Source: Undaria pinnatifida | Taxonomy: Eukaryota > Sar > Phaeophyceae > Laminariales > Alariaceae | DNA length: 64,000 nucleotides | Reading direction: 5' to 3' | Assembly: GCA_012845835.1 (NCBI GenBank) | Contig: JABAKD010000030.1 | Span: forward strand, 14,959,210 to 15,023,209 | Shown: positions 2,233-63,936 of the stretch, one piece after another | How positions within the stretch are numbered: the stretch's first letter is position 1 | Layout: each line of letters starts with the position of its first letter | The notes under the pieces: generated by a model | Seen by the model: only the letters and a program-made list of their open reading frames with translations | Told to the model about the DNA's origin: nothing | Databases searched by the model: none | Position numbers and translations under genes: made by a program

Positions 2233-2731
2233 CCTGACCGTTTGACCGGTACGTGGGGCTAAAAGTGTCCTCGCGCGGCTTCGCCGCGCGTTCGGCAGGC
2301 GTTCGCCAAAAAAAAAACGCGGGCAATAAAAAGCGGCAGGTGGCCAATCAGAGGCATGTCCTGCAAGAATTCGACGCAGGCCCGTCCTGCAAATAGGGTT
2401 TCTCGATATACAAGTACCTGGTATATGATAGATACGGCGGTATTACAGCAGTCCCGTATCGCTGTAGTTCAGAGTATATACTCGACGTATGATGGTTGCA
2501 GGACAACCGGGTTACTATTACTAGAGGCGGTCGTAGTTGTGTCTTGTTATCACTACAAAAAAATTACACAACATTAGCCGTCGACGCCAAGTCGATCATC
2601 AACGAACCGAGGGTTTATAAACTCGGATCGCCCGCGACAAGAACGCCTTCATATGTCGATTGGTGGGTAGGTTTTGGTCAGGGTTGCTTGGTTGTAGGTA
2701 ACGTCTTGTTACTACCAACCAATTGCAGTAG

Positions 2732-2905
2732 GGGTCCCCCAATAAGGCGGTATCCCTATATGAGGCGGTATCCCCATGTAAGGCGGTATCTCTATATAAA
2801 TCGGTATCCATATATAAGGCGGTATCCCTATATAAGGCGGTATTCCCATATAAGGCGGTCAAAATCGCTTCGCGCGTCCGGGAATAGCACTCATAACCCG
2901 GAATG
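2732..2905 (+). mobile_element. GGGTCCCCC-ended element with internal 18-bp tandem array
   Basis: The element starts GGGTCCCCCAATAAGGCGG and continues into about six imperfect copies of an 18-bp unit (TATCCCTATATAAGGCGG). It then reads TCAAAATCGCTT, CGGGAATAGCACTCATAACC. The same order is found at 15734 (plus) and 27270 (minus), where the far end is an inverted copy of the start. The far inverted end is not obvious here. Confidence 0.6.
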
Positions 2906-3330
2906 AACAAGGCAGCTCCCTCCAACAAGGTGGTCATATTGCTCTTGGCATACCGGGCGGCCCTTACTTACGTGTTACGTGAGGTGTGGCTTGATATCTA
3001 GGAGTATGTCCCACAGAGATTTTTTGGGGAGTAGCCGACGTTTATTCTCGAATGCTGTTTCAACAGCAACATATTAGATAACTAATAATACTCTGTATTC
3101 GTACTCCTCCCGATATTAAAGCGGGGGGGAGAAAAAACAAAATAAACCACTCACCACACATATGATAGAGCAGTACAGCAGTGGAGACTACAGTATTGAA
3201 TATATGATATAGATATGATGTTAGATCTAGCTCAAAATCCCCCATCTACAGTAAAAATAGCAACACTAACCATTATAGTGGATAAAAAATAGGATCCCTC
3301 CCAACAAAAAACTCAGCCATACTTGTATAG

Positions 3331-3425
3331 TATATTACAAGTACCAACAACGCAGCTTGCAAAGATGAGTATTGACCCGAAATTCGTCGAACTCACGGCT
3401 GACGTCCTTGAAGTATTTTTTATAT
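3331..3425 (+). repeat. Dispersed ~70-bp unit, form A
   Basis: Nearly identical to the copy at 1949, including the TATTACAAGTACCAACA leader. A minus-strand SINE begins a few bases after it. Confidence 0.7.
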
Positions 3426-3436
3426 AATACATATTT

Positions 3437-3716
3437 TTCACACTTCTACTTTCCAGATTCTGGACAAGTCGTGGTTGCAGGTGTCATCCCTTCTCCCCCC
3501 CCGTCCTTGCCTTCAATTTTTATCGCGTAGGATTCAGCAATCCCACCGCTCGTCGGTGTTTCATCGAGTGTTGCTAACTCACGCTCTCGCGCTTTCCGCA
3601 AGTCAATTTGTGCACAAGAAAAAGTCCCAACGAGTACGCACTCGGCGGGGCTCGAACTCACGAAACTGACCTATACCGGGCCCGAGGATAACCTGATACG
3701 CCACCGGGTCGACCGG
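3437..3716 (-). mobile_element. tRNA-derived SINE (family A), near full length
   Basis: The minus strand reads from a tRNA-like head (CGGTGGCGTATCAGG-type A box, AGTTCGAGCCCCGCCGAG B box) through the body motifs TGCACAAATTGACTTGCGG and AGCAGTGGGATTGCTGAA to the 3' end CAGAATCTGGAAAGTAGAAG. In other copies this end is followed by poly(A). The internal RNA polymerase III promoter is inferred from the tRNA resemblance. Confidence 0.85.
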
Positions 3717-4033
3717 CTGATATATACGAACCAGGTACCTGACCTGGTACCTGGTATGCATATATGATGCTGGTGAATGTTCTGCTTTTCGAATCCAGTA
3801 GGTTTGGCGCTAGCCATTTGGCACTGCATCTGCAATCGCCCGTACTTGCGATGTATGCGTGGTACTCGTCGTACAGCAGCTCTCCTCTCGCACTCGTGCG
3901 ACCACAGACCTGGCGAAAGGTCTGGTTTGATTTGTTCGTGTTCCGTCTTCCCACCCATCTTCAAGGCGTCAAGTGTAGAGTGTAGAGAGGAGCACACCAC
4001 CCCAACACCTACAGCCTTCCACATCGACATACC

Positions 4034-4321
4034 GGTCGCCCCGGTGGCGTATCAGGTTATCCTCGAGCCTGGTATAGGTCAGTTTCGTGAGTTCGAGCCC
4101 CGCCGAGTGCATACTCGTATAAATTCGTTGGGACTTTTTCTTGTGGACAAATTGACTTGCGGAAAGCGCGAGAGCGTGAGTAAGCAACATTCGATGAACA
4201 ATCGACGAGCAGTGGGACTGCTGAACCCTATGCGCGACAAAAATTGAAGGCAAGAACCGGGGAGGAGAAGGGATGACACCTGTGACCACGGCTTGTCCAG
4301 AAGCTGGAAAGTAAAAGTGTG

Positions 4322-4358
<37 letters not shown>
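4034..4358 (+). mobile_element. tRNA-derived SINE (family A), full length with 35-nt poly(A)
   Basis: The most complete copy. The head GGTCGCCCCGGTGGCGTATC carries the A-box-like TGGCGTATCAGG, and GAGTTCGAGCCCCGCCGAG is the B-box-like part. The unique body contains CTTGTGGACAAATTGACTTG and GACGAGCAGTGGGACTGCTG, and the 3' end TCCAGAAGCTGGAAAGTAA precedes 35 adenines (4324-4358). I could not find a convincing target-site duplication, so this copy is probably old. Confidence 0.9.
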
Positions 4359-5089: not shown

Positions 5090-5334
5090 AGTACCCGGTA
5101 GCACGGTGTCTCCTGCCAGGTGTCCTATCAGATACCCCGCTCCTTGTACGATCGTCTTACTGCTGTATCTCGACGTATGAGTAGCCCGTAAGAGTGGCAG
5201 GGTTGGGTTTTATGGTGCTACTCGAATACCTGGTATATTGAAGGGGCGGAGGGGCGTTGGGGTGGTGTTTTGACCTCTTGTATTCTATGATAAGTATGCG
5301 CGAAAGACTAGACTGGAGCGGACTTGGCTTGTTA

Positions 5335-6114
5335 GGCCATTTCTTATACAGTTATAGTCGGATTTGTCAGTCGAAAACGGCCTTTTTCGACTGAAGCCCA
5401 ATCGAGCTTTCTTACACAGTCGAAAAAGGGCTTTTTCGACTGAGAATTCCGACTGGCGGATCCAGTCAAAAAAGTTGAGTTTTTCGACTGGATCCTCCAG
5501 TCGAAAATCACAGTCGAAAAAGTTTTACACGTGTTTTTTTAACCGATCGCATCGTTCATCCCACCACCAAACACACACCCACACGGCCACACGGCCACAC
5601 ACCCATACCAGGTACCACACTGCAGTGTCATACAAGGCGCTGACGCTGGCGTGGCTATCACTGCTGTTGCTTCTCGCAGCAAGTCAGCGTGGCGCATTCC
5701 TAGTTCCGCCCGCCAGCAGCGTGTATCACACGACGGCAGCAGCGCGCGGTATCGATCCCATGCTGCCAACAACGGCTGCGCCTGCTGTAGCTTTGGCGGC
5801 TCTCGGCTGAGTGCAACACCACGAACGTAGCTTTGGCGGCTTTCGGCTAAGCCCAAAGCCACCAACTCGCTGGGACGAGGGTTCGTCGAGCCATTGCTCG
5901 CGGAGAAAGCGCGAAACACAGAGCTGCCAACCGATTTCGACTACTGCTGTACAGCAGTACTCCCTCACACCAACCGCCTCTGGGAAGAGCACAAGAACTA
6001 TAAAATCGACTCGACTGACGATAAGAAGAAGGACCAGAAGATTCCAGTAAAAAAAAAGTCCAGTCGAAAGGGGCCGTTTTGGACTGGCGGAATCCGACTG
6101 CACAAGAAATGGCC
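5335..6114 (+). mobile_element. PIF/Harbinger-like non-autonomous DNA transposon, copy 1 (TTA TSD)
   Basis: The ends are inverted repeats: GGCCATTTCTTATACAGT on the left, and on the right the complement of GGCCATTTCTTGTGCAGTCG. The element is flanked by TTA at 5332-5334 and 6115-6117. A 3-bp TWA duplication is typical of PIF/Harbinger. Subterminal regions are packed with palindromic CAGTCGAAAA...TTTTCGACTG units that would fold into hairpins. No transposase is encoded. The second copy lies at 23448-24218 in the opposite orientation and is alike along its whole length, so this is a true family rather than a chance palindrome. Confidence 0.85.
5625..5810 (+). pseudogene. Captured exon-like segment with plastid-presequence-like peptide
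   Basis: Inside the PIF-like element one frame (61 codons from a GTG; no ATG at this point) encodes ALTLAWLSLLLLLAASQ, followed by RGAFLVPPASS and an Ala-rich end with a stop at 5810. A hydrophobic signal peptide followed by a Phe near the cleavage site is the pattern of bipartite plastid targeting sequences in heterokont algae (the ASAFAP motif). The second element copy keeps the same peptide (minus strand, near 23733-23920) with a few substitutions. I infer a host first exon captured by the transposon. It could also be a chance hydrophobic frame. No function is claimed. Confidence 0.35.
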
Positions 6115-6838
6115 TTAGCGTTGTGCATTGTACCGGTATTCCAAGTCCGCTCCTGCAAGTCTAGAGTTTGAATTTTAGCATTGCCAACAAACGAACCCGA
6201 CATTCAACAGCTGAGATGTCGATAACTGATCTTCCATGACGCATGCTATCATATCGTATGTACCTACTATTGTTGACAATTATTTCTATATTGTTAAAAA
6301 TCTAAAAAGTAATTGGAACAAAATGGTACCTCTGGCGACCCATCAAGAGGACGTATTGATATGAATACGTACGTACGTATGTACGCATTCGTTGAAAGGC
6401 AATGTTACGTTAGCCACAGCTACAGCAGCAGCATCACAAACAGCAGTACGTGTACATCATAGAGAGGGCCCTTGACTACTTTGTGACAGCTATACTATAA
6501 AAAAAAAAACACTCCAGCTGTGTGACTGCTATATACGTAACAGCAGGCAAACCTTGTGCGTGTCTTGCGTATGCTCGAAAAATACTAAATGATCGTAACA
6601 TTTTCCAAACAGGAAAATCAAAACAGACTTGTTTGTACGAGTGCGTGAGCACCAAACGTGGCAAAAAAAGTGCGCCAGGTGACCCAGAGGTGAACCACGA
6701 TCGGCACGCTACTATCGACATACCAGGTACATACATACAGAGGTAGGGCAGAGGGTGAAAGTGAGGATGTACATGCATACAGCAGCAGCCTACTGCATGA
6801 TACAGGGGGAGTGCCTGCAAACATTGAGAGGGGCTTAC

Positions 6839-7335: not shown

Positions 7336-7822
7336 TTTTTTCAATATTAATAGTACACAAAGAGCAAACTGCTTCCGTCGTTTAGGTACGTACGAGTACC
7401 GCGTATATACGTATCATAGCCTGCTTTGAAAGCAGCCGGGAAACCATTGTGATGGAGAGTGGATACGACGGGAGACTCGTGATTTGTGATTTCAAAAGGC
7501 CATCACATCGCCACGATGTGACTATTAATACACGTACATATAGCGAACGCACACACCACACGGGTAGACAAGCACCAGGAACGCACAGTTCAGTACCCAA
7601 CAAACCAACACTACAGCAGTACGAGAAAGCACAGCAAATTTAGCAGCAGCAGCAGCAGGAGGCATGCAAATGCAACCGTGGCAGCTGAGCAACACTTCGG
7701 CGGCAGCATCAGGTACACAACAAAAACCGCGCTCTTCTGGTCATCATCACAGCAGTCCTCGTCATCAGCAGTCGTCATCATCACCATCATCCTCATTATC
7801 ACCATCATTTCATCCACATAAA

Positions 7823-8989: not shown

Positions 8990-10129
8990 AGTAGTCTATT
9001 AGTCGTAGTCTATACTTGTACTTCCACTCTGTTTTTTGGTGTGTATCCCATACCGGTGAACTTGTATTCGATTCAAAATATCATGCCGACCTGTGTGTGC
9101 CTCATGCGGCGAGAGCCAGCAAGCGTGCGGTACGTCGCAGGCATTCTACTCTCTCGAGCAGCGAAGCGAGATAAAAGGCAGCGAGCAAGAGCGAGTGAGT
9201 ACGTGTGAGTATACAAAGCGTAAAATAGTCGAGACTTTATGATTCATGACATACATGATGAGGTTGTATCATTGCTTTAGCGCGTTGGTCAGCGTGATGC
9301 TGGATCGCATGGTGGTGGTGGTGGTGGTGGTGGTGTGCGAGCTGGCGAACACTGCTCAAGACGAAAACGTCCCTATGTCTCATGTGATGCATTTGTTGTC
9401 GATCCAAATCCAACCATAAAAAATCCCTTGAAATACAGTACTACCAGGTACACACCTTTAAACAGATCTGTTTGGTAAAGTTTGTAGAACAGGCGGGGGC
9501 GGGGGCGTTCTTCTTGTAGATTTCGTGACACGTTGTTAGAGAGCATCCTACATATATACGCGAAACACCTGCGACGGCGATCGCCTCGAGCGAGGTGCTG
9601 TGAGGGTGTACGGCGCATGCGCACGAACGAAGTACACATGTAATACATATCGTGGCGTACCTTTGCTGCCTGCTTGCTGCTGTCGGGTGATTGTTCGAGG
9701 AACGTGTGGCGCTTCGTCGGGACGTTGGTGGGGTGCCATTAAGCCGACAAGCCGATACAACACCCAACCGTTTTAGATTTTTGAAAGATCTCTACCTCGA
9801 CCGAATATAGATATATCACATTCCGTGTCAGCTCCTTCGTTTGTGTGGGTATATCGCACGATCGCTGTCGTTTTTGTGTATCCATAGACCTCAAATAATG
9901 TGGATATTCACATAAAATACGCCCGTGTACCAGGTATCACAGAACGAACGGTTGAGAGTTGAGATACGATGCCATCGGGCATAGGGCAGTATCGTTAAAC
10001 TACAAGTATTAATAGTAAGTTACTTTCTGTACACACAGCATTATTACTTGCTTGACAGCTTGCTTTTCATTTCGACGAGCGATACGTACAAACCAGGTCC
10101 CCGTGATACCATACCATATATCGTAATCC
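8990..10129. other. No gene seen
   Basis: The stretch contains a short GGT/GGTGGT tract near 9310-9335, scattered TACCAGGTA words (9444, 9926) and a TATTAATAG word near 10006. No frame with coding character and no recognisable mobile element was found. Confidence 0.4.
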
Positions 10130-10442
10130 GGTCGCCCCGGTGGCGTATCAGGTTTTCCTCGAGCCTGGTATAGGTTAGTTTCGTGGGTTCGAGCCCCACC
10201 GAGTGCATACTCGTATAAATTCGTTGGGACTTTCTTCTTGTGCACAAATTGACTTGCGGAAAGCGCGAGGAGAGCGTGCGAGTTAGCAACATTCCTCGAT
10301 GAAAAATCGACGAGCAGTGGGATTGCCGAACCCTACGATGCGCGATAAAAACTGAAGGCAAGAACCGGGGGGAAGAAGGGATGACACCTGTGACCACGGC
10401 CTGTCCAGAAGCTGGAAAGTGTAAGTGTGAAAAAAAAAAAAA
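10130..10442 (+). mobile_element. tRNA-derived SINE (family A), full length with poly(A)
   Basis: The head GGTCGCCCCGGTGGCGTATC, B-box-like GGGTTCGAGCCCCACCGAG, body and 3' end TCCAGAAGCTGGAAAGTGTA are intact, followed by 13 adenines (10430-10442). There are small internal insertions relative to the 4034 copy. Confidence 0.9.
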
Positions 10443-13470: not shown

Positions 13471-13845
13471 CACACTGAAGACTGTGGAATATCCATAGCA
13501 AGCGGCTAATACATGGCAGTGGGTTATAGTTGATACTGCTGTAGTAGCAGTAATGGTGGTAGATTCGCGGTAGTCATGTTTCCTCGTGGCGGAATACTAC
13601 TCGTACGTGTATCCCTGTTGTTGCTGTGCATTTCATATTATACCATATAAAGACGTAAAGGCTACTATTCAGTGACTATACAGACGGAAATGTAACGGCC
13701 GTTTGAAAAACACATTTCTACCCCGTTGGTGCTGTCTGTTCCGTGCAGAGGGTGAATGCTGCATCACAGCACACACTCCCAGTATGGTGCATACTACGAT
13801 GTATATTACCCTTTCCTGCCACTACGGGCAATGCAGGCCTGTGGC

Positions 13846-14798: not shown

Positions 14799-15315
14799 CC
14801 GACGAGTATCATTCATACGTATGATATCATACGAGATACCAGATACGAGACACGAGCATGAATACGACCCCCCACTGGAGATGACGATGTTCTGTGTTTT
14901 TTGTTGCCACTTCGTACTACTTCGTATTATACTGCTTACTTTCGTTTTGCGTTGTATGAACACGATATGCTATCCGACGATATGTACCCTCGATTATTTT
15001 TTATAATAGGTTCGTCGACGGCTGATGTTATACCTTTTTCACGATGAAGACGTATGTATATACAGCCGTATTCATCTGGCGGGTTATCGGGATTTTAATT
15101 TCCTGGCGGTGTTCTGTGTTCTGGCTTAGTAACACTGCACAGATTTTGAATCGAAAACAAAAGAGAGGCTCGAAAACGAAAAAATGAGAATAGGTCGAAA
15201 TCAAATTGTCTACTCTACGGTCAGTACAACTACAGCAGTAGAGGAAAGCAGCTGGAGAATACGTTAGTTTGTTTAGAATGACTGCACCACTCACCCGCGT
15301 TTTTCGGATTAACCG

Positions 15316-16135: not shown

Positions 16136-16509
16136 GCGGTCATTTTGTGCTCTGGCACACCACCGCCATAATACTGGGAGAAACCCTTCCTGCTACTACT
16201 ACTGCTGTATGTAGTGCAGTGTAGTATACTCGTCTGGTATAAATATCATACAGTAAGGGTTTACGGGTTTACGACGGAAACCTCGAGGATTTGGAGAGAT
16301 GTTGAACTTCAAATCAAGCAAATACGACGCGTCCGTCTGCGACAACTCTGTCCGTATTATTATTGGGTCGTGTTGGACGTCGAAAGAGAGCCGACGTCAA
16401 TACATACATGCGACGGCGATGATACCGATGCACGATAAAATGTCAACAATGTGATGATACGACGCACCGAAGCGTTAATTCAGTGTTGTTGTATATACGT
16501 ATGCTGCTG

Positions 16510-18806: not shown

Positions 18807-18924
18807 AGACGTACTGCTGTAGGCCAAACGCGCTCGATACGAATCTCAAAAGTACGATATTTCGATACAACAGAGTATGATATGATACGATAATATATAC
18901 GATATGTCGAAACATTTGATACGT

Positions 18925-19650
18925 TGTTGTTGTTGTTCTCACATTAACTCGCATAATCAAGTCCGTGGTCACAGGACAGGCTCCAGTCACTCTGGAGCTG
19001 AGGAATACCCCAGGGAAAACACACACACAACCCAAGGTGGTACACGCATATGTCACAGCTAATTCATGCCTCCACCAGAAACATATAAAAGTGAAATCGG
19101 GAGTCAGTCTACGATGTGCCAGGTCCATACCGGTGCATACGTCTCATTACTCACGCCTGGAGAAACCGACTATCTATACCGCTTGCCACCCAAGAAAGAC
19201 TACCACGTATATATTACACGTATGATTAGTATCTATACGACGCATACGCACGACAGGCGCAAGTCAATTGGAGAAAAGAAACGAAGAAAAGAAAATTAGC
19301 TAAAGGAAAGGAAAGAAAAGAGAAGAAAGCGAAAAAAAAGAAGGAAAAAAACGAAAAACCAAAAAGGAAAGGAAAGAAAAGAAAGAGACAAGAAAAGCAA
19401 GAAAAGACAAGACAAGAAGAGGAAGCAAGGAAAGGAAGAGAGAAGAAAAAAGAAGAGAAAAATGTCATACTAGCAGACCCTGGGAACTGGCTAAAAGACG
19501 GCATTGGGCTCATCATAGAGAGTATCAAGTGCAGCATCAAGGGCACTGGGGAGAGAACGCAACATGGCGAAGAAGTCACGACATGGAACGCTAGGTCCGG
19601 CGGTAGTACGATACCTGCTACCACCATCCAGGCAAAAGGTATCATATTTT
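18925..19650. mobile_element. Dispersed element with (GTT)n/(AAC)n end and conserved peptide frames, copy 1
   Basis: The left end is GTTGTTGTTGTTCTCACATT, then AACTCGCATAATCAAGTCC and GTGGTCACAGGAC. Further in, the plus strand reads PPPETYKSEIGSQSTMCQV, HTGAYVSLLTPGETDY and YRLPPKKDYHVYI. After a GAAAAG-rich stretch (19260-19460) comes NVILADPGNWLKDGIGLIIE, then SIKCSIKGTGERTQHGEEVT. The copy at 58760-59265 (opposite strand) keeps the first block. The peptide may be a decayed coding region of a transposon or a gene fragment; no family is recognised. Confidence 0.5.
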
Positions 19651-19654: not shown

Positions 19655-20150
19655 AAATATTTCAAGGACGTCAGCCGTGAGTTCGACGAATTTCGGGTCA
19701 ATACTCATCTTTGCAAGCTGCGTTGTTGGTACTTGTAATAGACTATATTATATGGGTGAGATTTTTCGTAAGGGGAGGGGTCATATTGTTCGGTTAAAAA
19801 AACAAACACATATATTATTTTATTATAAAAATTAAAATACACTCCAGCTGTGAGATCGAAGATTTCGTCGAAACTCATCTTTGCAAGCTGTGTGTGATAC
19901 TCCGATCGCGCGCATTACGAGTTGTGTGTCCTCATTAAGGATATAGGTCGGCGACTCCCCTTACAGCTACAGTGTAGCTATCAGGGTCAACAGGATGATT
20001 TTAGTCAGTCTGTGCGCGGAAACTATAAAACCCGTTTCTGAGGGGGACAAAATCTGACAGCTGTGAAGGCAAAGGGGGGGCCTGGTTTTGATCAAAAGCG
20101 AGCGGGTTTGGAGGGGGGCGGGGGGGGGGGGGGGGGGGGAAAGGGGCAAT
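19655..20150 (-). repeat. Unit form A and form B in series, then family R
   Basis: A reverse form A unit (19655-19752) and a ~90-bp spacer (GGGTGAGATTTTTCG, AGGGGTCATATTGTTCGG) are followed by a form B unit (19830-19900). A family R segment then runs to its poly-G tracts (20118-20140). The arrangement shows that the short units belong to a longer tandem structure. Confidence 0.65.
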
Positions 20151-21900: not shown

Positions 21901-22499
21901 ATTTACTGCTGTGAAAAAGCGGAAGGGGGCACCATGTATGTGGTCAGCAAATGAATCTCGTTGAGCAGCTCAATTATTGACAAACTATAATCTGTTTTGT
22001 ACTGGGTGATATTTTTTACTTGTATTCAGCTTCTCGGCAATCGCAACGTCGATGATCAGCAGCATATGGGTGTTCATCCATGCCTCGGGACAAGAATGGT
22101 TTGACACGTAAAGACCCACACTTGAGGCTTGATGGTTCAACATTCGACGCATACACATCTAGACTAGACGCTAGGCACGAGATCTTAATGTTTTCAGGCG
22201 ACGCAGAAATTTGATTGCTCAACAATCAACTACAGCAGTATCTGGTACGAGATGAACTGCGCCAAAGCCGTCACCTCCTTTCTCTAAGAATTGCACGTGA
22301 AGAATTGTAATAACCCTTGCTCATGTTAAAATCAGTTGCATACGATATGTGTTGAGTTTATAGGGGTTTCCAAAGAGATATGGAGGCGTTATCCTACCCG
22401 GGGGTAGGGGACACTTTGTCATGACAGCCCGAAACCCCTCGGCAGACAGTTTCGACACCTCGACCACTCGGCATCTCGCTGACAACCGACATATTTGCT

Positions 22500-22685
22500 C
22501 CCCGGTTTACCCAGGAAATGAAACGGCTTGGATAATTGACAGGTCCGCCCGTATATCCGGCCGACCTGCTATCCCGCCGTTTCAGGGGGGGGGAGTGTTG
22601 TAAGGCTTAGTTTGGGTAAGCTGTTGGTTAACCTTTTGCAAGTGATCAATCGGACTATTACCCCACTATTAATAAGTCCTTAACA
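22500..22685 (+). mobile_element. TRIM family, 3' half (interior, purine tract, 3' LTR)
   Basis: The interior GAAACGGCTTGGATAATTG, GACAGGTCCGCCCGTATATC and GCCGTTTCAGGGGGGGGGAG lead into the LTR TGTTGTAAGGCTTAGTTTGG ... CCTTAACA (22596-22685). It is homologous to the TRIM at 18436 in the opposite orientation. The 5' LTR is not found. Near its 3' end this LTR has ACTATTAATAAG where the other copies read ACTAATACC. Confidence 0.75.
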
Positions 22686-23189: not shown

Positions 23190-24660
23190 GAACTGGAATT
23201 CTCGGTCAAATAGCTTCGTTCGAGCGCCGGCTTCGGGGGGCGGCTCAAACGCCCCTCGCCCTGCCGTGTCCGTCCCGCAACTCGACGTGAACGCGGGCGG
23301 ATGCCGACCGAGACAAGCGAGAAGTTGCAAAAACATCGCATGTCGAGGAGGAATTCCAGATATTTTGGTTGTATCTTCACCTCTGCAGCGCCTGGATGAT
23401 TTACAAAATTGGCATCATTTCCAAACGGTAGGTAGTTGCCATTGTAAAGCCATTTTTTATACAGTCGGATTCCGCTAGTCGAAAACGGCCCTTTTCGACT
23501 GGAATCTTCTGGTCCTTCCTCTTATCGTCAGTCGAGTCGATTTTATAGTCTTTGTGCTCTTCCTAGAGGCGGTTGGTGTGAGGGAGTACTGCTGTACGGC
23601 AGTCGAAATCGGTTGGCAGCTCTGTGCTTCGCGCTTTCTCCGCGAGCAACGGCTCGACGAACCCTCGTCCCAGCGAGTTGGTGGCTTTGGACTTAGCCGA
23701 AAGCCGCCAAAGCTACGTTCGTGGAATTGCACTCAGCTGAGAGCCGCCAAAGCTACAGCAGGCGCACCCGTTGTTGGCAGCATGGGATCGATACCGCGCG
23801 CTGCTGCCGTCGTGTGATACACGCTGCTGGCGAGCGGAACTAGGAATGCGCCACGCTGACTTGCTGCGAGAAGCAACAGCAGTGATAGCCACGCCAGCGT
23901 CAGCGCCTTGTTTGATACTGCAGTGCGGTACCTGGTATGGGTGTGTGGCCGTGTGGCAGTGTGGGTGTGTGTTTGGTGGTGGGATGAACGATACGATCGG
24001 TTCAAAAAACACGTGTAACACTTTTTCGACTGTGATTTTCGACTGGAGGATCCAGTCGAAAAACTCAACTTTTTTTACTGGATCCGCCAGTCGGAAATCT
24101 CAGTCGAAAAGAGTTGAGTCGAAAAAGCCCTTTTTCGACTGTGTAAGAACGCTCGATTTGGGCTTCAGTCAAAAAAGGCCGTTTTCGACTGACATATCCG
24201 ACTGTATAAGAAATGGCCTAATGTTTTGAATTTTGCCGTGGCGTATTCTCGAGCGTTTTTTTTGCTTGACGTCTGCAGGGCTTGAGCGTTTGTTTGTTTT
24301 GCTTGACGTCTGCAGGGCTTGAACGAACGAAACACGTAAAGTCTTCGGGGGTGGTTCCAACGCGCAAAAGTCTTCGTGGGGCGGCTCCAACGCCCCTCGC
24401 CCTTCCTTATCCGTTGGGCACCTCGACGTGAACGCGGATGGATGCCGAGCGAGACAAGGGAGAAGTTGCAAAAATATTGTATTTTGAAGAGGTAATCTTG
24501 CGACTTCGGTTGTATCTTGACGTCTTCAGCGTCTGGATATATTTCCAAAATTGGCATCATTTCCAAACGGTAGTTAGTTGCTAAAGTTTTGAATTTTGCG
24601 GTGGTATTATCTCGAGCGCTTGTTTTGCTGGACGTCTGCAGGGCTTGAGCGCGTGTTATA
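23190..24660. repeat. Tandem duplication (~370-bp units) interrupted by the PIF-like element
   Basis: Both 23200-23444 and 24360-24585 contain GGGGCGGCTC.AACGCCCCTC, CTCGACGTGAACGCGG, GAGAAGTTGCAAAAA and TTGGCATCATTTCCAAACGG. GTTTTGAATTTTGC.GTGG and GACGTCTGCAGGGCTTGAGC also repeat, at 24222 and 24586. The transposon sits at one unit junction, while the equivalent junction at 24575-24590 is empty. Confidence 0.7.
23448..24218 (-). mobile_element. PIF/Harbinger-like element, copy 2 (TAA TSD)
   Basis: 771 bp, inverted relative to 5335-6114 and alike along its length. The ends are AGCCATTTTTTATACAGTCG and the complement of GGCCATTTCTTATACAGTCG. TAA flanks it at 23445-23447 and 24219-24221. The paralogous empty junction near 24578 (GTTGCTAAAGTTTTG) has a single TAA, supporting a 3-bp duplication on insertion. 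It carries the same signal-peptide-like frame as copy 1. Confidence 0.85.
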
Positions 24661-24675: not shown

Positions 24676-24852
24676 ATCGTCGAATTTCCATTCGAGTGTT
24701 GCTAACCCACGCTCTCGCGCTATCCGCAAGTCAAACAGTGCATAACAAAGCGAAAAATTGTACGGGTACGCACTCGGGGGGATTCGAACTCGCGAAGCTG
24801 ATCTATACCTGTACCAGGCTCGAGGATATAACCTGATACGCCACCGGGGCAG
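24676..24852 (-). mobile_element. SINE family A, 3'-incomplete copy
   Basis: Only the head and first half of the body are present (GCCCCGGTGGCGTATCAGG; TTCGAATCCCCCCGAG; TTGCGGATAGCGCGAG). A 6-bp insertion (TACCTGTACC instead of TACC) lies near 24812. Immediately outside is a second head-like GGTCGCCCAGGTGGTCTGG. Confidence 0.7.
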
Positions 24853-26990: not shown

Positions 26991-29432
26991 ATGGATGCAG
27001 CCAACGTGAAGACCTTCAAGCTGGATGCCAGCGGCGGGGGCTGCAGCGGCATGTTTTGGAGGTAAATGTTGAATGAGACAGTATAAGCTGTCTCGCTAGG
27101 AACTCGCGCAGTAGGGTGTTTGTAGCTGTAGCTGTGTGCGTTGATGGATCCCTGTCGGTCGGTCGGTCGGTCGGTCGCTTGAGCCGCCTCGAAAGGAGTC
27201 CTTATTAATTGGTGCCGTGTAACTTAGAAACTCGCGTGTACAGTACAGTACAGTACACCATCGCCATAGTATGGGTCCCCTCAATAAGGCGGTGGTGGGG
27301 TGTGCGAGAGCAGTATAACCGCCCTAAAGGGGGAAGCCGCCTCATCCATACCAGCTCATGAGTGCGATTCAGCAGCCGCGTCAAGCGATTTTGACCGCCT
27401 TATATCAGGACACCGCCTTACTCAGACCGCCTTATCGAGGGACCCCCACTACTGGATGAAGCTTTTAGGAAGATCGCACGGCAGTAGTACAAGGATCACC
27501 ACGCCGCACGCCTGTCGCACAGCTCTTGTTATGCATGGTAGCTCGGACACAGGCACATCCTCTACCCCAGCTTCTCCGGTTTCTCGGTGTGGTCGGTACC
27601 GCTGTAATCAAAGCGGGCCACGATCTGGACGAAGCACTCTTTGGGGCATTTTTAATTTCTGTGGGACAAGGCTCCTTAACCCCTTCAGAGCCTCCAAACC
27701 CCTCCCTATACTAACTTCAAGTAATCGGAGCACTTTTGGGGCCTTTTTGTTTTGTGGGACGGGGCTCCTCTACCCCTTTAGAGCCCCTCCCTATACTAAC
27801 TTCGGGTAATTTTGTAAGTGAAACGGGTCTCCAGTTGTAAAGGGAGAAAAAAATCACGACGAAAATTAACGATTAAGGCATCGGCCACTTACTGCTGGCT
27901 GGCGATGATGACGATAATGAAATTGGCGTCCGAACGACAACAAAGCGAAGACTCTCGCACGGAACACGGGCGCAACATGATCTTACTGCTGCCGTGCTGG
28001 TGCGCGCTCCCGCTACGATAGGTAAACCGTTGAAAATGACGCAATCAATCGTCGTTTCTGTGGTCGCTATATATATCTTCAGTGAGGCCACAAACCCAGT
28101 AATACGCGCGATCGGAGTATCACACACGGCGTGCAAAGATGATGAGTTCCGACGAAACCTTCGATCTCACGGCTGGAGGAGTGCATTTTTATGCTATACA
28201 CCGGCACCCAAAAAAGAGTTCGACCCGAAATCGCCGGGATGTCGTTCTTGTTGTGCAATATGAAATTTGGAAATATTTTTTTATACCTACAGCAGTACCA
28301 TGGTTTTTTTTGGTTGTTTAGTTGTTGCACTTTCAGTTTGCTCAAAAGTAAGTTTTTTGGTCTTGGAAGGCAAGGCAATAGACAATAGACAATAGACAAT
28401 AGGCAATGGTCAATAGGCAATAGACAATAGGCAACAGGCGATATGCAACACAGATTGCCCCACAGGTCAGGAGCCTTAGGATAACATCGCTGCACCTCCA
28501 CCATATTAATACCATACAGTACCATATTAACGCTATATTGATAACATATTAATATCATATTCATACCTTATTCATACCATATTCATACCATATTCATACC
28601 ATATCAATACCATACTAATACCATTTCAATAGCAATTTAACACTATATTCATAACATCTTCATATCATATTAATACCATATTAATACCATATTAATACCG
28701 TATTAATCCCATATTAATAGCATGTATGGGCCAATCGTCGGGGAGGGGGTTTCGGCGGAAGCTTTTTCTCCAAAGTCTCTGAGGGGTCGCGAAGGCAAAC
28801 GACCTTTTACTTGTATTAATGAATCACATTACGAAAATTGAATTGAAAGCATGGTGGCCTTTTTTTGCTCCCCCTCTATCTACAACAGAGCGGCAGAACA
28901 GAGTACGACTTTTGAAGGTATCGGGTTTGTATGCGCTGCAAAAGCACCAGGATGAGTTGTGCCCGTTCCATGCTGTGGTTTCGTGCTATTACAGAGCAAA
29001 TCCCACATATTATGACCCGAAGAAACAACAGTACAAAATCAGGCGTGTAACAGAAAACGTTCGTTATTTTGGCTGTGTGTTTATTGATCTCTGTGCTTAT
29101 TGGCGTGTGTGTATGCGCGTGTGTGCATGGACGTATGTATGTGCTACGCCGTTTTTGAGCAGGACGAAGCCGGAGATGAGCGCTAGCACCTCTAGCTCCG
29201 ACTGGCCCCGCAACGGAGCCATTCTCAAGGGCTGGTAAGTGCTGATGGTGGAAACAGAAGTGGTGACCGTCTAAACTCGCTTGTTTTCTGAAAACAGGCG
29301 TTGGAAATATTTCAAGCGTGTCATATCTGCCTGTATTCGGCACCTCGATTCTGCGTCGGGCGTGTTGTGTATTGTATTGTTGGCTCTTATCGCGCCGTGT
29401 GTGCTCATCAAGTTTGCTCGATTTCTTGTTTG
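26991..29432 (+). CDS. SH3-like 'CSGMFWR...DWPRNGAILKG' protein gene, 5' exons
   Basis: Exon 1 (26991-27061) starts at ATG and encodes MDAANVKTFKLDASGGGC, SGMFW and the first two bases of Arg, at donor AG|GTAAAT. Exon 2 (29163-29234) follows TTTTTGAGCAG, completes the Arg and encodes TKPEMSASTSSSDWPRNG, AILKG, then a split Trp at donor GTAAGT. Exon 3 starts at 29298 after GAAAACAG and encodes RWKYFKRVISACIRHLD, then a hydrophobic stretch and a TGA at 29430-29432 if read through. Phases agree at both joins (2 then 2). CSGM(F/W)WR followed by DWPRNGA.L.G is, from memory, a pattern of algal and diatom SH3-like proteins of unknown function. The 2.1-kb first intron holds two MITE types and a minisatellite. 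Whether exon 3 ends at 29432 or splices on to 41065 is open. Confidence 0.6.
27270..27448 (-). mobile_element. GGGTCCCC-ended MITE with ~20-bp inverted ends
   Basis: The left end GGGTCCCCTCAATAAGGCGG and right end ACCGCCTTATCGAGGGACCC are inverted repeats around a ~179-bp element. The interior contains the complement of GCGGTCAAAATCGCTTGAC and of ATCGCACTCATGAGC, as in the copies at 2732 and 15734. It lies within intron 1 of the 26991 gene. Confidence 0.75.
27673..27845 (+). mobile_element. Two ~90-bp miniature elements in series
   Basis: The first, truncated, is CTTAACCCCTTCAGAGCC with CCCTCCCTATACTAACTTC. The second is CTACCCCTTTAGAGCCCC with CCCTATACTAACTTCGGG and ends TCCAGTTGTAAAGGGAG. 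Same family as 912. Confidence 0.6.
28105..28200 (+). repeat. Dispersed ~70-bp unit, form B
   Basis: It contains ATACGCGCGATCGGAGTATC, then GTGCAAAGATGATGAGTTCC and CTTCGATCTCACGGCTGG. Here the core reads ATGATGA because GATG is duplicated. Confidence 0.65.
28375..28445 (+). repeat. (CAATAGA)n short tandem repeat
   Basis: CAATAGACAATAGACAATAG with variants, about eight units. Confidence 0.8.
28500..28720 (+). repeat. (CATATTAATAC)n minisatellite
   Basis: About 18 imperfect copies of an 11-bp CATATTMATAC unit fill the end of this intronic stretch. Confidence 0.85.
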
Positions 29433-29439: not shown

Positions 29440-30520
29440 GAACAAGATAGATAGAAATTTTGCGTTTTGCAGTACGGCAGTACATTCTCGGCCGCGCGAG
29501 AAACTCAGACTGGCTTTTCCGCGGGAAATTCGAAAGTCGGGAGCTGTTATTCTAACGTAAATAATATGAAAAACAACATTTCTTAACTGAGAAAACTAGC
29601 CTGGGACAGGTTTTCAAATTTACCGGTTGGATGCTTAAGAGCCACATTTTTCAAGTCAGATCAAGAATCGGATTGAGGAGTGATTGGCGACAGAGCCAGA
29701 GTGCTTATGAACCAACCTTGGATTGAGTTGGAGGAGGGGATGTCGAAAAAAAAAGGCGTTATGCCTGAAAATAGAGTTGAAAAGTGGGGGATTTGGGGAT
29801 TGTCATGATGGTTTCTTGTCAGAGGCGCGGTGCTGGAGTACCGTGTTTTAGAACCTTCACAATCGTGTCATGGTGTATATTTCTCGGTTAACTTCTCGTT
29901 TGCTGCTGTGGTACTGCCAGGTGAGCAATACGATGTTCTGAAACGTCCAACGTCTAAAAAGAAACGTTCTTTGATCCTGTTAATCATGCAACATGTTCCA
30001 TGAAACGTTCCACACCTACATGTATACAGCAGTGAGGTCTATGCTGACTACTTTTGCCCTACAATCTCTAGTTACTGAAAAACGCGTTGAAAGCGTCCAA
30101 CATCTCGGTAGCCTTTTTGCTCAACGTTCGAAGCCTTTCAACCCACCAACACTTTCATGCCTGACTGATTTATTTGGCCTGTTTACCTGTTTAACGTCCA
30201 GCACTCAATGTGTTGTACTTCGAAGTATACTACTAAATCGTTCTATCAAAGGCATAGCAAATAGTAACAGTGAGCTGTAGCAACGCGTCAAACTGTCCTC
30301 GAAGCGGTTGGCATCCATCTGGTACCTGGTATCTCGGAGGTAGTAGTTTGCCCCAGTGACTATTCATTGCTACTGTTGCAACGACATTTGTGTACGAAGA
30401 ATTCAACATAATCTCCGTAACAACCTTTATTTGCTCTATTTTCCCGTTGAAGCATGCCACACACCCAGCGTCTCGTAGACATGGTAGTATTCCCAGGTAA
30501 TGTTTTGCTCTATTAATAGC
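29440..30520. other. No gene or clear element
   Basis: A-rich and T-rich runs and scattered AACGTCC words are seen. The frame at 29993-30280 has no recognisable domain. TACCTGGTA occurs near 30321 and TATTAATAG near 30508. Confidence 0.35.
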
Positions 30521-33689: not shown

Positions 33690-33955
33690 AAAAGTATTTC
33701 AAGAACGTCAGCCGTGAGTTCGACGAAATTCGGATCAATACACATCTTTGCAAGCTGCGTTGTTGGTATCGTACTTGTAATATACTATGTGGGTGAGTTT
33801 TTTCTTAATGGGAGGGGTCCTGTTCTTTTGTTTCAAAAATAAATGAATATTTTACAACAAAAATATTTTCGAGGACGTCAGCCGTGAGTTCGACGCATTT
33901 TCGGGTCAATACTCATCTTTGCAAGCTGCGTTGTCGTACTTGTAACATACTATGT
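33690..33955 (-). repeat. Two form A units in series
   Basis: Both contain GACGTCAGCCGTGAGTTCG or a one-base variant, and CATCTTTGCAAGCTGCGTTG. They are separated by ~95 bp with GGGTGAGTTTTTTC and GGGAGGGGTCCTG. The first unit has a 7-bp insertion (GGTATCGTACTTG instead of GGTACTTG). Confidence 0.75.
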
Positions 33956-35535: not shown

Positions 35536-36064
35536 TTGAGGGTGTGGTGGTGTTGTCGTTGTTATTGTTGTTATTCTTGTTCTTACTATATATTCGTACA
35601 CATCTTTTGTTTTACTAGATGCTGTAATTATTGTATTTTGTATTCTATCTTCCAGCTCAAACCCCGATCAACCTTGCATTCATACCTGGTATCACAGCCA
35701 ACAGGTTTGATATTCCTGACTATACCATTGCATGGTCCAGCAACTAACCCGGTACTACAAAAATTACGGTAACCCTAAATAGGCAAATCGAACCGTAATG
35801 ATTCTCGGGTCGTTGATCGGCGTTGCAGGCTGCCTGTGAAACCTCCCCTCTCCACCCGCCGACACCGACATCCGAGCAGACCTAACCTCCTTATTTCCAC
35901 AGCTCAGCTCTGCCTGTACTAGTAGCAGTGCCGAGAAAATATGACCTACCGAGGGGGCTTCGCCGCGGCGGGCTACCGCCTGCCTTGCCTCCGCGCATGC
36001 CCGCAATTTCCGGGGATGCATGACATATACTCACTGGTTGTACGACTTACGGGATATACATGAC

Positions 36065-37428: not shown

Positions 37429-37759
37429 TACTACTACTACTACCACTACTACTACTGTGGGACGTAGCTCCGCACAACGCACAACTCGTAGGTGCGTGTA
37501 AACTCAACAACAGCATGCAGCAACGACCAACGGCAAAAGCCGTACAAGTATCATACAGCAAACACACGTAGTGTAACAGCTGCTAGCAGCAGCAACGCCG
37601 CACAACGCACAACTGTTATGTGCTTGTAAATTCAACAACAGCATGCTGCAGCAGCAGCGGCAGCACCACAGCACAGCAGCAGTACGACAAACAGCAAACA
37701 CTGCAGTACCCAGTCAGTGTAATATATGCATACCTGGTACAGTACATATAATAATATGG

Positions 37760-58625: not shown

Positions 58626-58759
58626 GGGTGGAAGGAGGGGGCGTTCATTAATATACAGCAGTACGTTGTAGTTGCACAAAATTTACGGAAGGTCGTTCGC
58701 GCGTGTTAGTTACGTATTATACAAGTATATTTGATCCTTCTTGCCGTCTTTAGTCAGTT

Positions 58760-59265
58760 CCTAGGGTCTGCTAAAATAGTATAACATTTTTTTCTCTTTT
58801 CCTTTCCTTGCTTCCTCTTGTCTTGTCTTTCCTTTCCTTTTTCGTTTTTTCGCTTTCTTGTCTTTTCTTTCCTTTCCTTCACCTTCTTTTCTTTTCCTTG
58901 TTTCTTTAAATTTTCCAATTGACTTGCGTCTGTCGTGCGTATGCGTAGTGATAGGTACTACGTGCAATGTATACGTGGTAGTCTTTCTTGGGTGGCAAGC
59001 GGTATACCAGGTAGTCGGTTTTTACAGGCGCGAGTAGTGAGACGTATGCACCAATATAGACCTGGCACATCGTTGGCTGACTCCCGATTTCACTTTCATA
59101 TGTTTCTGGTGGAGGCATGAGTTGCGTCAGCTGTGATATATGCGTGTACAGTAGTACCCCCTTTGGTTTGTTTGTGTTTTTCCCTGGGGTATTCCTCAGC
59201 TCCAGAGTGACTGGAGCCTGTTCTGTGACCACAGACTTGATTTTTGCGGGTTAATGTGAGAACAA
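58760..59265. mobile_element. Dispersed element with (AAC)n end and conserved peptide, copy 2
   Basis: Inverted relative to 18925-19650: a TTTTCC-rich stretch (58790-58915), then on the minus strand ETYESEIGSQPTMCQVYIG, AYVSLLAPVKTDYL and YRLPPKKDYHVYIA, and the end GGTTAATGTGAGAACAACA at ~59265. Relative to copy 1 there is one extra codon, where TACCTGGTATACC replaces TATCTATACC. Confidence 0.55.
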
Positions 59266-60636: not shown

Positions 60637-61317
60637 GACCTACTGTTACGGATTTTTTTCAGCCATTTTTTCTGGCGATTATTCTTGTAGTTTTGAGGCT
60701 CCAGAAATAAGGGGCGTCCATTATGACATCTGATTTTTGGAAGGTGGGTCTATTTTGAATTGGTCGGTCTTGTTTTGCCGTTTGCCTATATTTGTGAAAA
60801 TCTGGCACGTACACTGTCGCTGGTGACGTTAGGTCACCACCGCCTCTGCTGCTCTCTGCCGCTGTGCTGCTGATTTGCTGCTGCTGTGGTGTGCCTGTGG
60901 CGGTTTCGATGGTGGTGGTGGTGCTGCTGCTGTCGCTTTTGTGTGAGAACGAAGCGCTGTCTCGCACACAACAAGCGCGGTGTGCTGTAGTATGTGTGTT
61001 TGTGATTCATTGTTGTGGGTGGTGGGTGACGTGTACAGCAGACTGGCATCATACCAGGTACAGAGCAGGCAGTGGTGACATGTGATACTTGGTACGAGGC
61101 AGTATCCAAAAGTCAAATAATCCCACTTTTAAAAGGTTGGAAGAGCTAATGTTTTTGGGCTCAGAAATCACCAGACCCGCTGATTTCTGGCCTCGATTAT
61201 TTCTGAACCCAGAAATAGCGATGATTTCTGGTTCCATTTTTGGTTGGTTTTATTTTTGGCGTCGGAGATCCCTGCTAAAGAGAGAAACAAGCGCTCTAAA
61301 TATTTGCCATAATATTT

Positions 61318-61390
61318 GGTCTAACGTCAGCTGTGAGTTCGACGAAATTAGGGTCGATACTCATCTTTGCAAGCTGCGCACTACATCTAT
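61318..61390 (-). repeat. Dispersed ~70-bp unit, form A
   Basis: CGTCAGCTGTGAGTTCGACG, AATTAGGGTCGATACTC and ATCTTTGCAAGCTGCGCAC. Confidence 0.7.
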
Positions 61391-61904
61391 CGCCCTTTTT
61401 TAATAAGCTTCATAAATCAAGACCTAATATAAGATGACACTGCTTTACTACACTACTTATCATACATGACCAAGTGTTAGATTGGTAACACATCAATCGC
61501 CTGTGTATCTAGTAGTAATAACAACAATATAACAACGGAGATTTCATTGTCAGTTGTGAGTCGACAAGTTTTCGCCGTAGAGGGAAATCTTTTTGGGGTC
61601 CGTTTCGTCGATTTTTTTTTCTTGGTTCGTTTCGCTATGGCTAAATTTGTTTAGGTTGTTTTCCGACGCAGGCGCTTTTTGAAATTTTGAATTACGAAAT
61701 TTATCGTCTTAATCGCAGGAGGTGTAACGTTTGATTCCCCCTCTCTCCCATATATATGCTCGACACTCGTCACGCCGACTCGAGACTCAAAACAGCCATC
61801 ACTCATTCAGGTAGAGCCCAGGCTCAAACTTTAAGTACCGTAGCAACGCGCGTGATGGCACGCGGGTGCGATCGTTTTTTCAATCATTCCTTTCTTGGAT
61901 TTTT

Positions 61905-62118
61905 ATCGCACCCCGGTGCGATAACTCCGATGGGTGCGATAACCCCGATAGGAATGCGATAATCGAATTAAATCGTGCCGTCCTAGCCTTTTCAACGCAC
62001 TCTCCGGTGCGATAACCCCGATGGGTGCGATACGGATTATGATCACAGCGGCAAAGGGTGCCAAGTTCCTGTAAACAGGCACACCCCGGTGCGATAACTC
62101 CGATAGGTGCGATATTGC
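61905..62118 (+). repeat. Three copies of a GGTGCGATAACYCCGAT repeat
   Basis: CCGGTGCGATAACTCCGATG, CCGGTGCGATAACCCCGATG and CCGGTGCGATAACTCCGAT lie at ~61916, ~62006 and ~62086. Each is followed by GGTGCGATA. The separating sequences are unrelated to one another. Confidence 0.8.
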
Positions 62119-62144
62119 ATAATACCACAACGGCTTCCTTTGTA

Positions 62145-63160
62145 TCATTTTCGTGCTGTGGGCCATTGAGTGAGCATCACAATAACTGATACGTAGCAGC
62201 TTGGTGACGTGCAGCGATTGCTGACCGGCGGAGTCGAATGCGAGTTTGGTACACGGTAGCCAAGGATGGAAAACCATGCGGTCTTCTGCTGGGAATGGTG
62301 TTTCAGTTTGTCCGCCAGCTTTTTGTTGGCGTGTTTCCCTGTCTGTGTTGTTTTTATGTTCTTCAGTGAGTACAGTGGTGCCTTCTGGTTAAAGGTTGCG
62401 GGATGTGTGTGTTCTGTGCTTGGTTGAGCGTGCGATACTCTGTCACGGTGTACGATATAATGTGAGTTTAGTCCGGTTGCTTCGGCGAAATTCGGCACGA
62501 AACGCCGCACAAAATTCATCACCCCCAAAATGGGGCGAAGATCTTTGATGGCTTTGATGGAGGTGGGAGTGGGTAGCTCTTGGATAGCTTTAATACGGTC
62601 TTTTCCAAGTGCCACCCCTTCAGCAGAAATAACGTGGCCTAAATATTCGACAGATTTCGGACCAAACGCTGGTTTAGACGGTTTCAGGGTGAGGTCAGCT
62701 GCTTGCAACGCTGCAAACATGCTCTCCAAAGATTTCAAATGACTCTCCCAAGTTGCGGACAAAACGCAGAGATCGTCCATATAAATGAGCAACGCGGTGA
62801 TACTGCCCGACGTTTTATGAGCCATTTCTGTGATAAGCCACGGAGCATCACAAACACCAAAAGGCATACGCTAATATCAGTAGTACTTGCCAGAATTAGT
62901 GACAAATGCAGTAGCCTTGACATGGTCAGGGTGGACGAGAATCTGCCAATAGGCGCTTTGGATGTCAGCAACATTGATTAACTTGGTGCCTCCGTCCATG
63001 TCAACGTTGTCCTCAAGATTGACCATCGGTCAGGTCTTGCGGGTGAGGTGTTTGTTGTGTGTACTGCAATAATCAGCACAAAAACGAGGTTGACCATCCT
63101 TGCGAGCTACGATGGTAACGGGCGATTCCCAAGTGCTAGAGCGTTTCTCTGCTCTATCAC
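62145..63160 (-). pseudogene. Ty3/gypsy-type reverse transcriptase, decayed
   Basis: On the minus strand, in order: SSTWESPVTIVARKDGQPRF, CADYCSTHNKHLTRKT, an in-frame TGA, MVNLEDNVDMDGGTKLINVA, DIQSAYWQILVHPDHVKATA and FVTNSGKYY, then TGA and TAG. MPFGVCDAPWLITEMAH, the catalytic YMDD (LLIYMDDLCVL), PKSVEYLGHVISAEGVALG and LRPILGVMNFVRRFVPNFAE follow. These are RT blocks 1-7 and the connection toward RNase H of Ty3/gypsy elements. The three stops make it inactive. After NFAEATGLN the similarity ends, so RNase H and integrase are lost or moved. Confidence 0.9.
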
Positions 63161-63164
63161 CGAC

Positions 63165-63225
63165 GAGGCTACAGCATTTGTCACTAATTCTGGCAAGTAC
63201 TGCTATAAGCGTATGCCTTTCAGAC
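63165..63225 (+). pseudogene. Inverted fragment of the same reverse transcriptase
   Basis: The plus strand reads TAFVTNSGKYCYKRMPF. This duplicates, in opposite orientation and without the stops, the segment at 62862-62915. It marks a local rearrangement of two element copies. Confidence 0.75.
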
Positions 63226-63936
63226 CAGCGCCAGTCACGGTAACGGCTGCAGTGTCTGCAGACGAACCCGACGATAGGTCCGATTTGATTGCCGACGACG
63301 GCGAGGGGGTTGTAGGGGGAGTCGGTAACGATCGGGACGACCCTCCTGCAATCTGCACAGCAGATGAATCTACTGCTGTAGATGAAACTACAGCGGACGA
63401 ATTGCTGGAAGCAAGCAACACGTTATTGCCGTTTACGGGGGACAACTCCGACACTGCTGCGCCTGCACTAGTTGTCGTAGCGGACGACGCCGCGGGTACA
63501 TCAGCACTTACCACTGCATCATTAACGACGGACACCGCCAGCAGTGCAGAACCAGGCGAAAACGGTGTCGGTTCCCTCTTCTCGCGGAGAGCAACGATCC
63601 TTGCCGTGGTTTCCTCCGTGTAGAGGAGCATGGCGAGTTACTCTGGTTTCGTTGGCCTTCCGGAAACTCCCCGGATCGCCGCGCGGAGAGTTTTTTCATG
63701 ATCGCTAGACGACGAGGAGGATGAATCGGACGACGATTCATGACACGATGGGTGAGGAGACGACTCCTTACCGGCAGGCGCCGTTGCTCCCGCGCTTTGG
63801 TCAGGGCTGCTGGCCCAAGGGTTGGGTTTTTTCCCTTCTCATCGGAGGGGGCGGATCGTAGTCCGCGTCGATAACCGTGGGGATCTTTGGGCGAAGCGGG
63901 TGCTGCTTTTGCAGCAGGTTTCTTTTTCTTCGCCAC
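63203..63936 (-). pseudogene. Gag-like region of the retroelement (frameshifted)
   Basis: The minus strand has a basic N-terminal frame (AKKKKPAAKAAPASPKDPHG from 63936) and, in another frame, a Ser/Ala-rich stretch (LLYTEETTARIVALREKREP ... to 63203). The composition suits the start of a Ty3-type gag, and it lies in the correct position upstream of the RT. The frame change and the lack of a zinc knuckle or protease suggest decay or deletion. No ATG is seen near the start of the first frame. Confidence 0.4.

Follow-up and report, generated by a model that had tools for sequence, protein, structure and literature searches.

What are the short words, each bounded by TA at both ends, that recur through a stretch of 64,000 nucleotides from the brown alga Undaria pinnatifida? 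This stretch (G000:C38:14959210-15023209; contig JABAKD010000030.1), hereafter the window, carries repeated copies of two of them: the CAGCAG word, reading TACTGCTGTA on the + strand and TACAGCAGTA on the - strand, and the CCWGG word, reading TACCTGGTA (+) or TACCAGGTA (-). A sequence-only reading of the window had claimed that such words are in excess and are small acquired insertions. Both parts of this claim hold. The excess is real, genome-wide and after masking, and insertion alleles in repeats that are usually bare at the TA establish, with near certainty, that the words were acquired throughout the genome. The words are probably excision footprints of several families of TA-target (Tc1/mariner/pogo-like) transposons.

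TA-bounded words in the window and the genome

The window contains 13 CAGCAG words (7 TACTGCTGTA and 6 TACAGCAGTA) and 14 CCWGG words (8 TACCTGGTA and 6 TACCAGGTA). These counts agree with the "roughly a dozen" and "about fifteen" estimated by the sequence-only reading, whose 12 and 9 positions are correct within 11 and 6 bases, respectively.

5158..5167, + strand: TACTGCTGTA word, in the window count
5942..5959, unstranded: TACTGCTGTACAGCAGTA palindrome, two words with a common TA, in the ~800-base repeat family
7612..7621, - strand: TACAGCAGTA word
13534..13543, + strand: TACTGCTGTA word
15231..15240, - strand: TACAGCAGTA word
16200..16209, + strand: TACTGCTGTA word
18812..18821, + strand: TACTGCTGTA word
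22231..22240, - strand: TACAGCAGTA word
23587..23596, + strand: TACTGCTGTA word within the ~800-base family
28288..28297, - strand: TACAGCAGTA word
58654..58663, - strand: TACAGCAGTA word
63371..63380, + strand: TACTGCTGTA word
2415..2423, + strand: TACCTGGTA word
3748..3756, + strand: TACCTGGTA word
5227..5235, + strand: TACCTGGTA word
5606..5614, - strand: TACCAGGTA word, common to ~800-base family copies, site equivalent to 23929
6721..6729, - strand: TACCAGGTA word
9442..9450, - strand: TACCAGGTA word
9928..9936, - strand: TACCAGGTA word
23929..23937, + strand: TACCTGGTA word, common to ~800-base family copies
30323..30331, + strand: TACCTGGTA word
35683..35691, + strand: TACCTGGTA word
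37731..37739, + strand: TACCTGGTA word
61052..61060, - strand: TACCAGGTA word

The window additionally holds 17 copies of TACGAGTA/TACTCGTA and 9 + 9 of ATTAATAG/CTATTAAT, a count in which 4 palindromes, CTATTAATAG, are included twice.

Enrichment was calculated in a sample composed of the window and 20 dispersed stretches of 10 kb (264 kb in total, including 6 kb of N). Relative to a third-order Markov model, the CCWGG word occurs 44 times versus 1.5 expected and the CAGCAG word 28 times versus 0.9, and the reversed strings of both are absent from this sample. Genome-wide counts were made on the 511,146,479-base assembly in 68 contigs (the published assembly is given as 511,280,173 bases with 50.14% GC; PMC7058681). 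There, TACTGCTGTA/TACAGCAGTA occurs 30,703 times (15,259 + 15,444 by strand), 28-fold above its reversed string at 1,084 (486 + 598 by strand). TACCWGGTA, which is identical on both strands and was therefore counted once per site, occurs at 85,263 sites versus 3,475 for the reversed string, a 24.5-fold excess. The window is rich in the CAGCAG word, with 13 per 64 kb versus ~60 per Mb genome-wide. The sequence-only reading had called for a count against a Markov model with repeats masked; when simple repeats were masked and occurrences with similar flanks collapsed, the excess persisted (30 versus 2.2 for the CCWGG word and 24 versus 1.7 for the CAGCAG word). In the same test no comparable words were bounded by other dinucleotides, which gave only simple repeats, overlaps of TA words and one weak word.

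Further TA-bounded words are enriched in the sample, namely TAGWCTA, TACGAGTA/TACTCGTA, TACAAGTA/TACTTGTA, TATTAATA, TATSATA and, more weakly, TACSGTA. Scar-type words dominate the TA-bounded words found there. Six words taken together are rarer than expected in open frames of at least 200 codons (25 of 230 versus 21% expected, p = 4e-5); because their reversed strings show a similar share (2 of 24, p = 0.14), composition may explain this rarity.

The possibility that the words are parts of one dispersed repeat was rejected, since the flanks of 28 and 44 sampled words are mostly unrelated to each other. The exceptions are a short interspersed nuclear element (SINE)-like repeat, within which 8 of the 38 TACGAGTA copies of the sample fall, and the ~800-base family. 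The 18-base palindrome at 5942 has 14 sites genome-wide and lies within this family in 4 of 5 copies (the window and L002, L003 and L004; L-numbered loci, L002 to L043, are genome stretches analysed besides the window).

Insertion alleles in repeat copies

The sequence-only reading had also claimed that paired copies of repeats differ by these words. The features bearing on this claim, and on the insertion test described below, are as follows.

32973..32981, + strand: TACCTGGTA inserted in one hairpin arm; bare TA at ~32680 in the other arm, flanks 96-98% identical
59005..59013, - strand: TACCAGGTA inserted at a TA; bare TA in L018:3996 and L021:317, TAGATA in the window at ~19177, TATTAATA in L018:1463
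19170..19177 (approximate), unstranded: TAGATA allele at the TA site equivalent to 59005
24806..24813, unstranded: TACCTGTA (TACAGGTA on the opposite strand) inserted in a SINE copy at its TATA site
33767..33773 (approximate), unstranded: TATCGTA insertion relative to other copies of its repeat
19739..19745, unstranded: TAGACTA insertion; bare TA in the paralogue at ~51024
10128..10442, + strand: copy of the ~300-base SINE-like repeat, basis of the genome-wide insertion test

The differences named for the hairpin arms and for the SINE copy at 24806 are present. The 18.9- and 58.9-kb elements both carry insertions at one TA, where other copies are bare, so that this single site holds TACCAGGTA, TATTAATA, TAGATA or a bare TA depending on the copy. 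For a pair of long terminal repeats, TATTAATA at 22667 compared with 18508 bears out the claim, and the fit is less exact. In the remaining one of the five examples, repeat family R at 36359, the difference is, in contrast to what had been claimed, a CAG duplication (TACAGTG to TACAGCAGTG) with no TA-bounded word. Overall, among 41 word instances for which a paralogue exists, 7 differ from one by exactly the word minus TA, whereas 4 of 282 control positions chosen at random do so. The CAGCAG word contributes 13 of the 41, almost all in the ~800-base family, and none of these 13 gave such a difference. A screen of gaps in BLAST alignments yielded 23 TA-type gaps among 373, too few for a decision. 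The hairpin itself is a near-perfect inverted repeat at window positions 32656-33006, with 121-base arms that are 98% identical and differ by one CCWGG word; an open frame spans the repeat.

The SINE-like repeat has an A-rich end and what we take to be a tRNA-type B-box motif. Besides the copy at 10128-10442, the window contains ~10 more (e.g. 3434, 4032, 4625, 11951, 25772, 40190), and 20 stretches of it were found in 276 kb. Insertions of 3-30 bases were sought across the genome at fixed positions within high-copy repeats, namely two TA sites of the SINE and one of family R. Insertions are carried by 226 matches at SINE site 1, 189 at SINE site 2 and 143 at family R; the reversed site patterns gave 0 matches, and bare TA is the usual state among the SINE and family R copies examined. 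Alleles were classified for the first 100 matches per TA site, and the allele counts given here and below refer to these 300 matches listed. They comprise 150 perfect tandem duplications, 119 alleles of the form TA-core-TA and 31 others. Among the non-duplications, TA-core-TA alleles account for 30 of 41 at SINE site 1, 59 of 70 at SINE site 2 and 30 of 39 at family R, showing insertion at a TA that is duplicated in the process. At least 4 of the 119 TA-core-TA alleles (three in family R, one at SINE site 2) are in fact duplications of longer local stretches, which are invisible to a scoring that used a 20-base reference. An earlier scoring (89 and 86 of 100 TA-bounded) was overstated by the inclusion of tandem duplications and has been replaced. 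Words among the non-duplicated alleles listed include TACGTA (21), TACCWGGTA (19), TACGAGTA/TACTCGTA (10) and TACAAGTA/TACTTGTA (7).

These alleles bear on two other explanations. Ordinary slippage, tandem duplication or base composition would account for the 150 duplications, which cover most TAATA, TAGATA, TATATA, TACTA and TACATA alleles listed at the TA sites, and for the CAG copy at 36359; it stands for short repeats. However, it fails for CCWGG, CGAG, CAAG and CG. Of the 150 remaining alleles, 119, less at least four longer duplications, are fixed words that copy nothing adjacent, and the words exceed their reversed strings more than 20-fold genome-wide. As an explanation of the words it is therefore very unlikely. 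Formation of the CAGCAG word by slippage from CAG is likewise unlikely, with TACAGCAGCAGTA at 0 in the sample. According to the second explanation, the words are ancestral and some copies have lost them by deletion; the sequence-only reading had named this beforehand as one of the outcomes that would overturn its claim. This explanation draws on the TACGAGTA copies in the SINE and on the words of the ~800-base family, which are common to their own families. At the tested sites, in contrast, the TAs hold different words in different copies and are usually bare, and the direction of change is from bare TA to word; loss by deletion merits next to no credence.

At a TA-free SINE site, the TA-word class is unscorable by construction, and the inserted strings were compared directly. 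All 82 insertions there divide into 52 duplications and 30 others; one string contains TACTGTA and none contains another of the words. At this site, which lies between CGACGAGCAG and TGGGATTGCT, a 4-base duplication, AGTG, is present in 21 of the 82 insertion alleles and marks either a SINE subfamily or a duplication hotspot.

Proposed footprint mechanism and candidate sources

In agreement with a Tc1/mariner-type footprint, the words are inserted at TA with the TA duplicated and derive from a bare TA, and both TA-target transposase genes and TA-flanked elements with inverted ends are present in the genome. According to the proposed mechanism, an element would insert at a TA, duplicating it, and upon exit a few bases from both of its ends would remain between the two TAs, converting TA to TA-core-TA; a whole element would once have stood at each scar. 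Imperfect pairing of staggered ends, followed by repair, would set the core and give it complementary outer bases. Among 60 single cores of 3-8 bases, 52 show such outer bases (as do 13 of the 21 distinct cores), and these, together with strand forms that differ only inside (CCAGG/CCTGG, CGAG/CTCG, CAAG/CTTG, GAC/GTC), are what imperfectly paired, repaired staggered ends are expected to leave. In family R, read in one fixed orientation, CCAGG occurs 10 times and CCTGG 6 times among the matches listed, a mixture that would follow from resolution of a central mismatch in either direction or from an element having lain in either orientation. Overhangs paired at the outer bases and mismatched centrally would give words of odd length with a variable centre, the form of CWG, GWC and TSA. 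For CCWGG, the overhangs would have to be five bases long, or three bases long and joined with an overlap of one base; CAGCAG, which remains unexplained, would need a longer stagger or templated filling. Because every scar holds a TA, later elements may land there and build nested chains; nested chains do occur among the insertions (e.g. TACTGTACTTGTA).

The complementary outer bases also bear on abortive transposition, in which a TA-target transposase cuts or joins only a single end at a TA and the host trims the product, leaving terminal bases and a duplicated TA where no complete element ever stood. This process would yield TA-core-TA with word-specific target contexts and would account for the failure to find full elements. 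However, outer bases such as those of CCWGG, CGAG and GAC are expected if both ends contribute, whereas one-ended scraps need not show them, and we consider this alternative unlikely.

Target context was read outward from the TA at all loci available at that stage, with occurrences sharing an identical 8-base flank dropped. Next to the TA, CCWGG avoids A (4 versus 19.5 expected), TTAA prefers G (29 versus 13.3) and CSG also prefers G (45 versus 20), while GWC prefers A at +2 (68 versus 39). Among the matches listed, new CCWGG insertions make up 16 of 53 single-core alleles at C-TA-C, compared with 3 of 126 for the two SINE sites together (Fisher p = 2.6e-7), and the CG core makes up 18 of 65 single-core alleles at C-TA-T. 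These contexts, specific to each word, point to different enzymes behind different words, each with its own target choice.

The precision of the standing words is relevant to a further proposal, in which no transposon leaves and a dedicated or novel enzyme uses a nucleic-acid template to write fixed words at TA. Variants of the CAGCAG and CCWGG words that lack a single base show hardly any enrichment, mixed forms (TACAGCTGTA, TACTGCAGTA) number 0 in 264 kb, and the two main words are without source elements found, all of which would suit templated writing. In contrast, many words with differing contexts would require many templates while TA-target transposons are present, and shortened forms do occur among the new insertions listed (TACCAGTA 4, TACCGGTA 1). 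This proposal is judged quite unlikely.

One-mismatch forms give an indication of age. For CAGCAG, 59 are found versus 20 expected, alongside 27 exact words; for CCWGG, with the other central base set aside, 92 are found versus ~41, alongside 42 exact words. If mutations follow a Poisson distribution, these figures would correspond, as a rough estimate, to ~1.2-1.4 changes per word, or roughly 13-14% divergence, and, from the exact counts, to about 1.3e5 CAGCAG and 2.8e5 CCWGG events genome-wide.

Candidate sources of excision footprints are present. The genome contains 82 matches to DDE_1 (pogo-like) and 8 to DDE_3, 7 of them above cut-off, and Pfam confirms one DDE_1 and one DDE_3 protein; Transposase_1 (PF01359) had no match in the genome, and its controls were equally silent. 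A ~4-kb DDE_1 pogo-like element is 99% identical at two places, G000:C57:16545359-16549404 (L041, L036, L042) and C30 ~2730293-2734196 (L043, L037). Its ends read TA-CAGTCAAACCCCGC...GCGGGGTTTGACTG-TA, the first copy showing both ends and the second a single end, its opposite side being N. Judging from this sequence identity and the TAs at its ends, the element was probably mobile recently. A shorter relative lies at L016:1695-2848. In L025-L028, TA-flanked ~1.75-kb elements with ends TA-TGGTCCGTGCACAAC and a short DDE_3 match are 98.7-99.3% identical, and L029 and L030 hold longer open frames of the same family. Finally, L019:5767-5869 is a TA-bounded, 103-base miniature inverted-repeat element ending in CGGGGGACC (CGGGGGACCATAGTAAATAG). 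The ends found are thus CAGT, TGGTCC and, in the one 103-base element, CGGGGG; CWG, CA/TG and CG words could fit them. Two candidates were discarded because their inverted repeats extend beyond the TAs, namely a 312-base pair at 62884-63199 (ends CTTG, 20-base perfect arms) and a ~750-base element at 23458. Beside a DDE_1 frame, positions 480-850 of L034 are dense in TA words, partly nested; the whole locus, 3,561 bases long, has 6 exact TACAGCAGTA words, and 4 of them fall there.

Several observations weigh against excision footprints. Core lengths of CG, GWC, CGAG, CAAG and TTAA fit the 2-4 bases typical of Tc1/mariner footprints (PMC7913693), but those of CCWGG (5) and CAGCAG (6) exceed them, and CAGCAG does not fit a simple pairing of two inverted ends. 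CAGCAG appears as a new insertion only once among the matches listed, nested in a longer insertion at SINE site 2. TACWGTA, the word predicted by CAGT ends, lies above the Markov model (52 versus 27) but not above its own reversed string (62). With respect to sources, the CCWGG, CAGCAG, CGAG and CAAG cores have no matching element among the ends found, no element ending in CCAGG/CCTGG or CAGCAG/CTGCTG was found in the 276-340 kb examined, and no recurrent end was seen at a SINE site among 100 matches listed (150 matches, 85 with the reversed pattern). TA-flanked inverted ends are not in excess, at 44 versus 98 for AT, 94 for GC, 39 for CG and 11-33 for six others. Of the mechanisms put forward by the sequence-only reading, transposon excision footprints nevertheless fit best, but neither of the two main long words yielded a source element.

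A few strings at that SINE site share CAG(CAG)TGAG and were taken as another repeat, which seems to hold CTGAACCCTACAG, a TGAG-rich continuation and variable CAG copies (e.g. C19:15753304, C22:7773708, C22:10402669). The genome has five matches to a family R flank followed by CCWGG and a non-T base; two regions have unrelated left flanks and are ascribed to chance, and two more matches resemble those two.

A tentative extension of the excision-footprint reading is that other TA-target transposases, with 5- and 6-base staggered ends for CCWGG and CAGCAG, might have excised so completely that their copies now escape easy detection, each having left scars numbering of the order of 100,000 or more; the genome would then be a fossil record of families known by their scars alone.

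Significance and comparison with known systems

The footprint studies found proceed locus by locus or in assays, whereas the scars described here are genome-wide. With scars this common, excision events could be tallied, their ages estimated from mutations in the words, and each attributed to a family through its core and target context, even if no elements survive. Such data would make it possible to test how frequently cut-and-paste elements leave in full, how end joining deals with mismatched ends in a brown alga, and whether repeated TA-adding insertions reshape intergenic DNA; the words may be the fossil record of transposons that are now difficult to trace. A literature search returned no description of such TA words or of genome-wide footprints in brown algae, and no paper containing both "excision footprint" and "brown alga", a limited listing that is not proof of absence. 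The novelty lies in the scale, in cores of 5-6 bases and in the failure to find source elements.

Internal eliminated sequences of Paramecium are likewise TA-bounded, with ends resembling TACAG; their precise removal leaves a single TA and no scar. Sleeping Beauty-type enzymes are described as cutting three bases inside on one strand, which gives 3-base 3' overhangs and repaired footprints identical to these overhangs (PMC7827188). As in Sleeping Beauty and Tc1/mariner, the TA target in Undaria is duplicated and a few bases, proposed to be terminal bases of an element, lie between two TAs. Unlike in those systems, the most enriched words include some with cores of 4, 5 and 6 bases, a single word pair accounts for 85,263 exact sites, and no elements matching the main words were found. 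Ectocarpus, also a brown alga with this TA-target superfamily, is reported to have 17 Mariner-Tc1 families with 11,912 copies, mostly non-autonomous, in a study whose main text has 0 occurrences of "footprint" and "excision" (PMC12477816). A precedent for several words at one site is provided by Stowaway miniature inverted-repeat transposable elements in Triticeae, for which several TA-bounded terminal-repeat remnants at a single site and an insertion beside an old footprint are described (PMC1925063). The Undaria words share the short, TA-bounded form of these footprints; unlike the account of Stowaway, which concerns one intron, the signal in Undaria extends across the genome.

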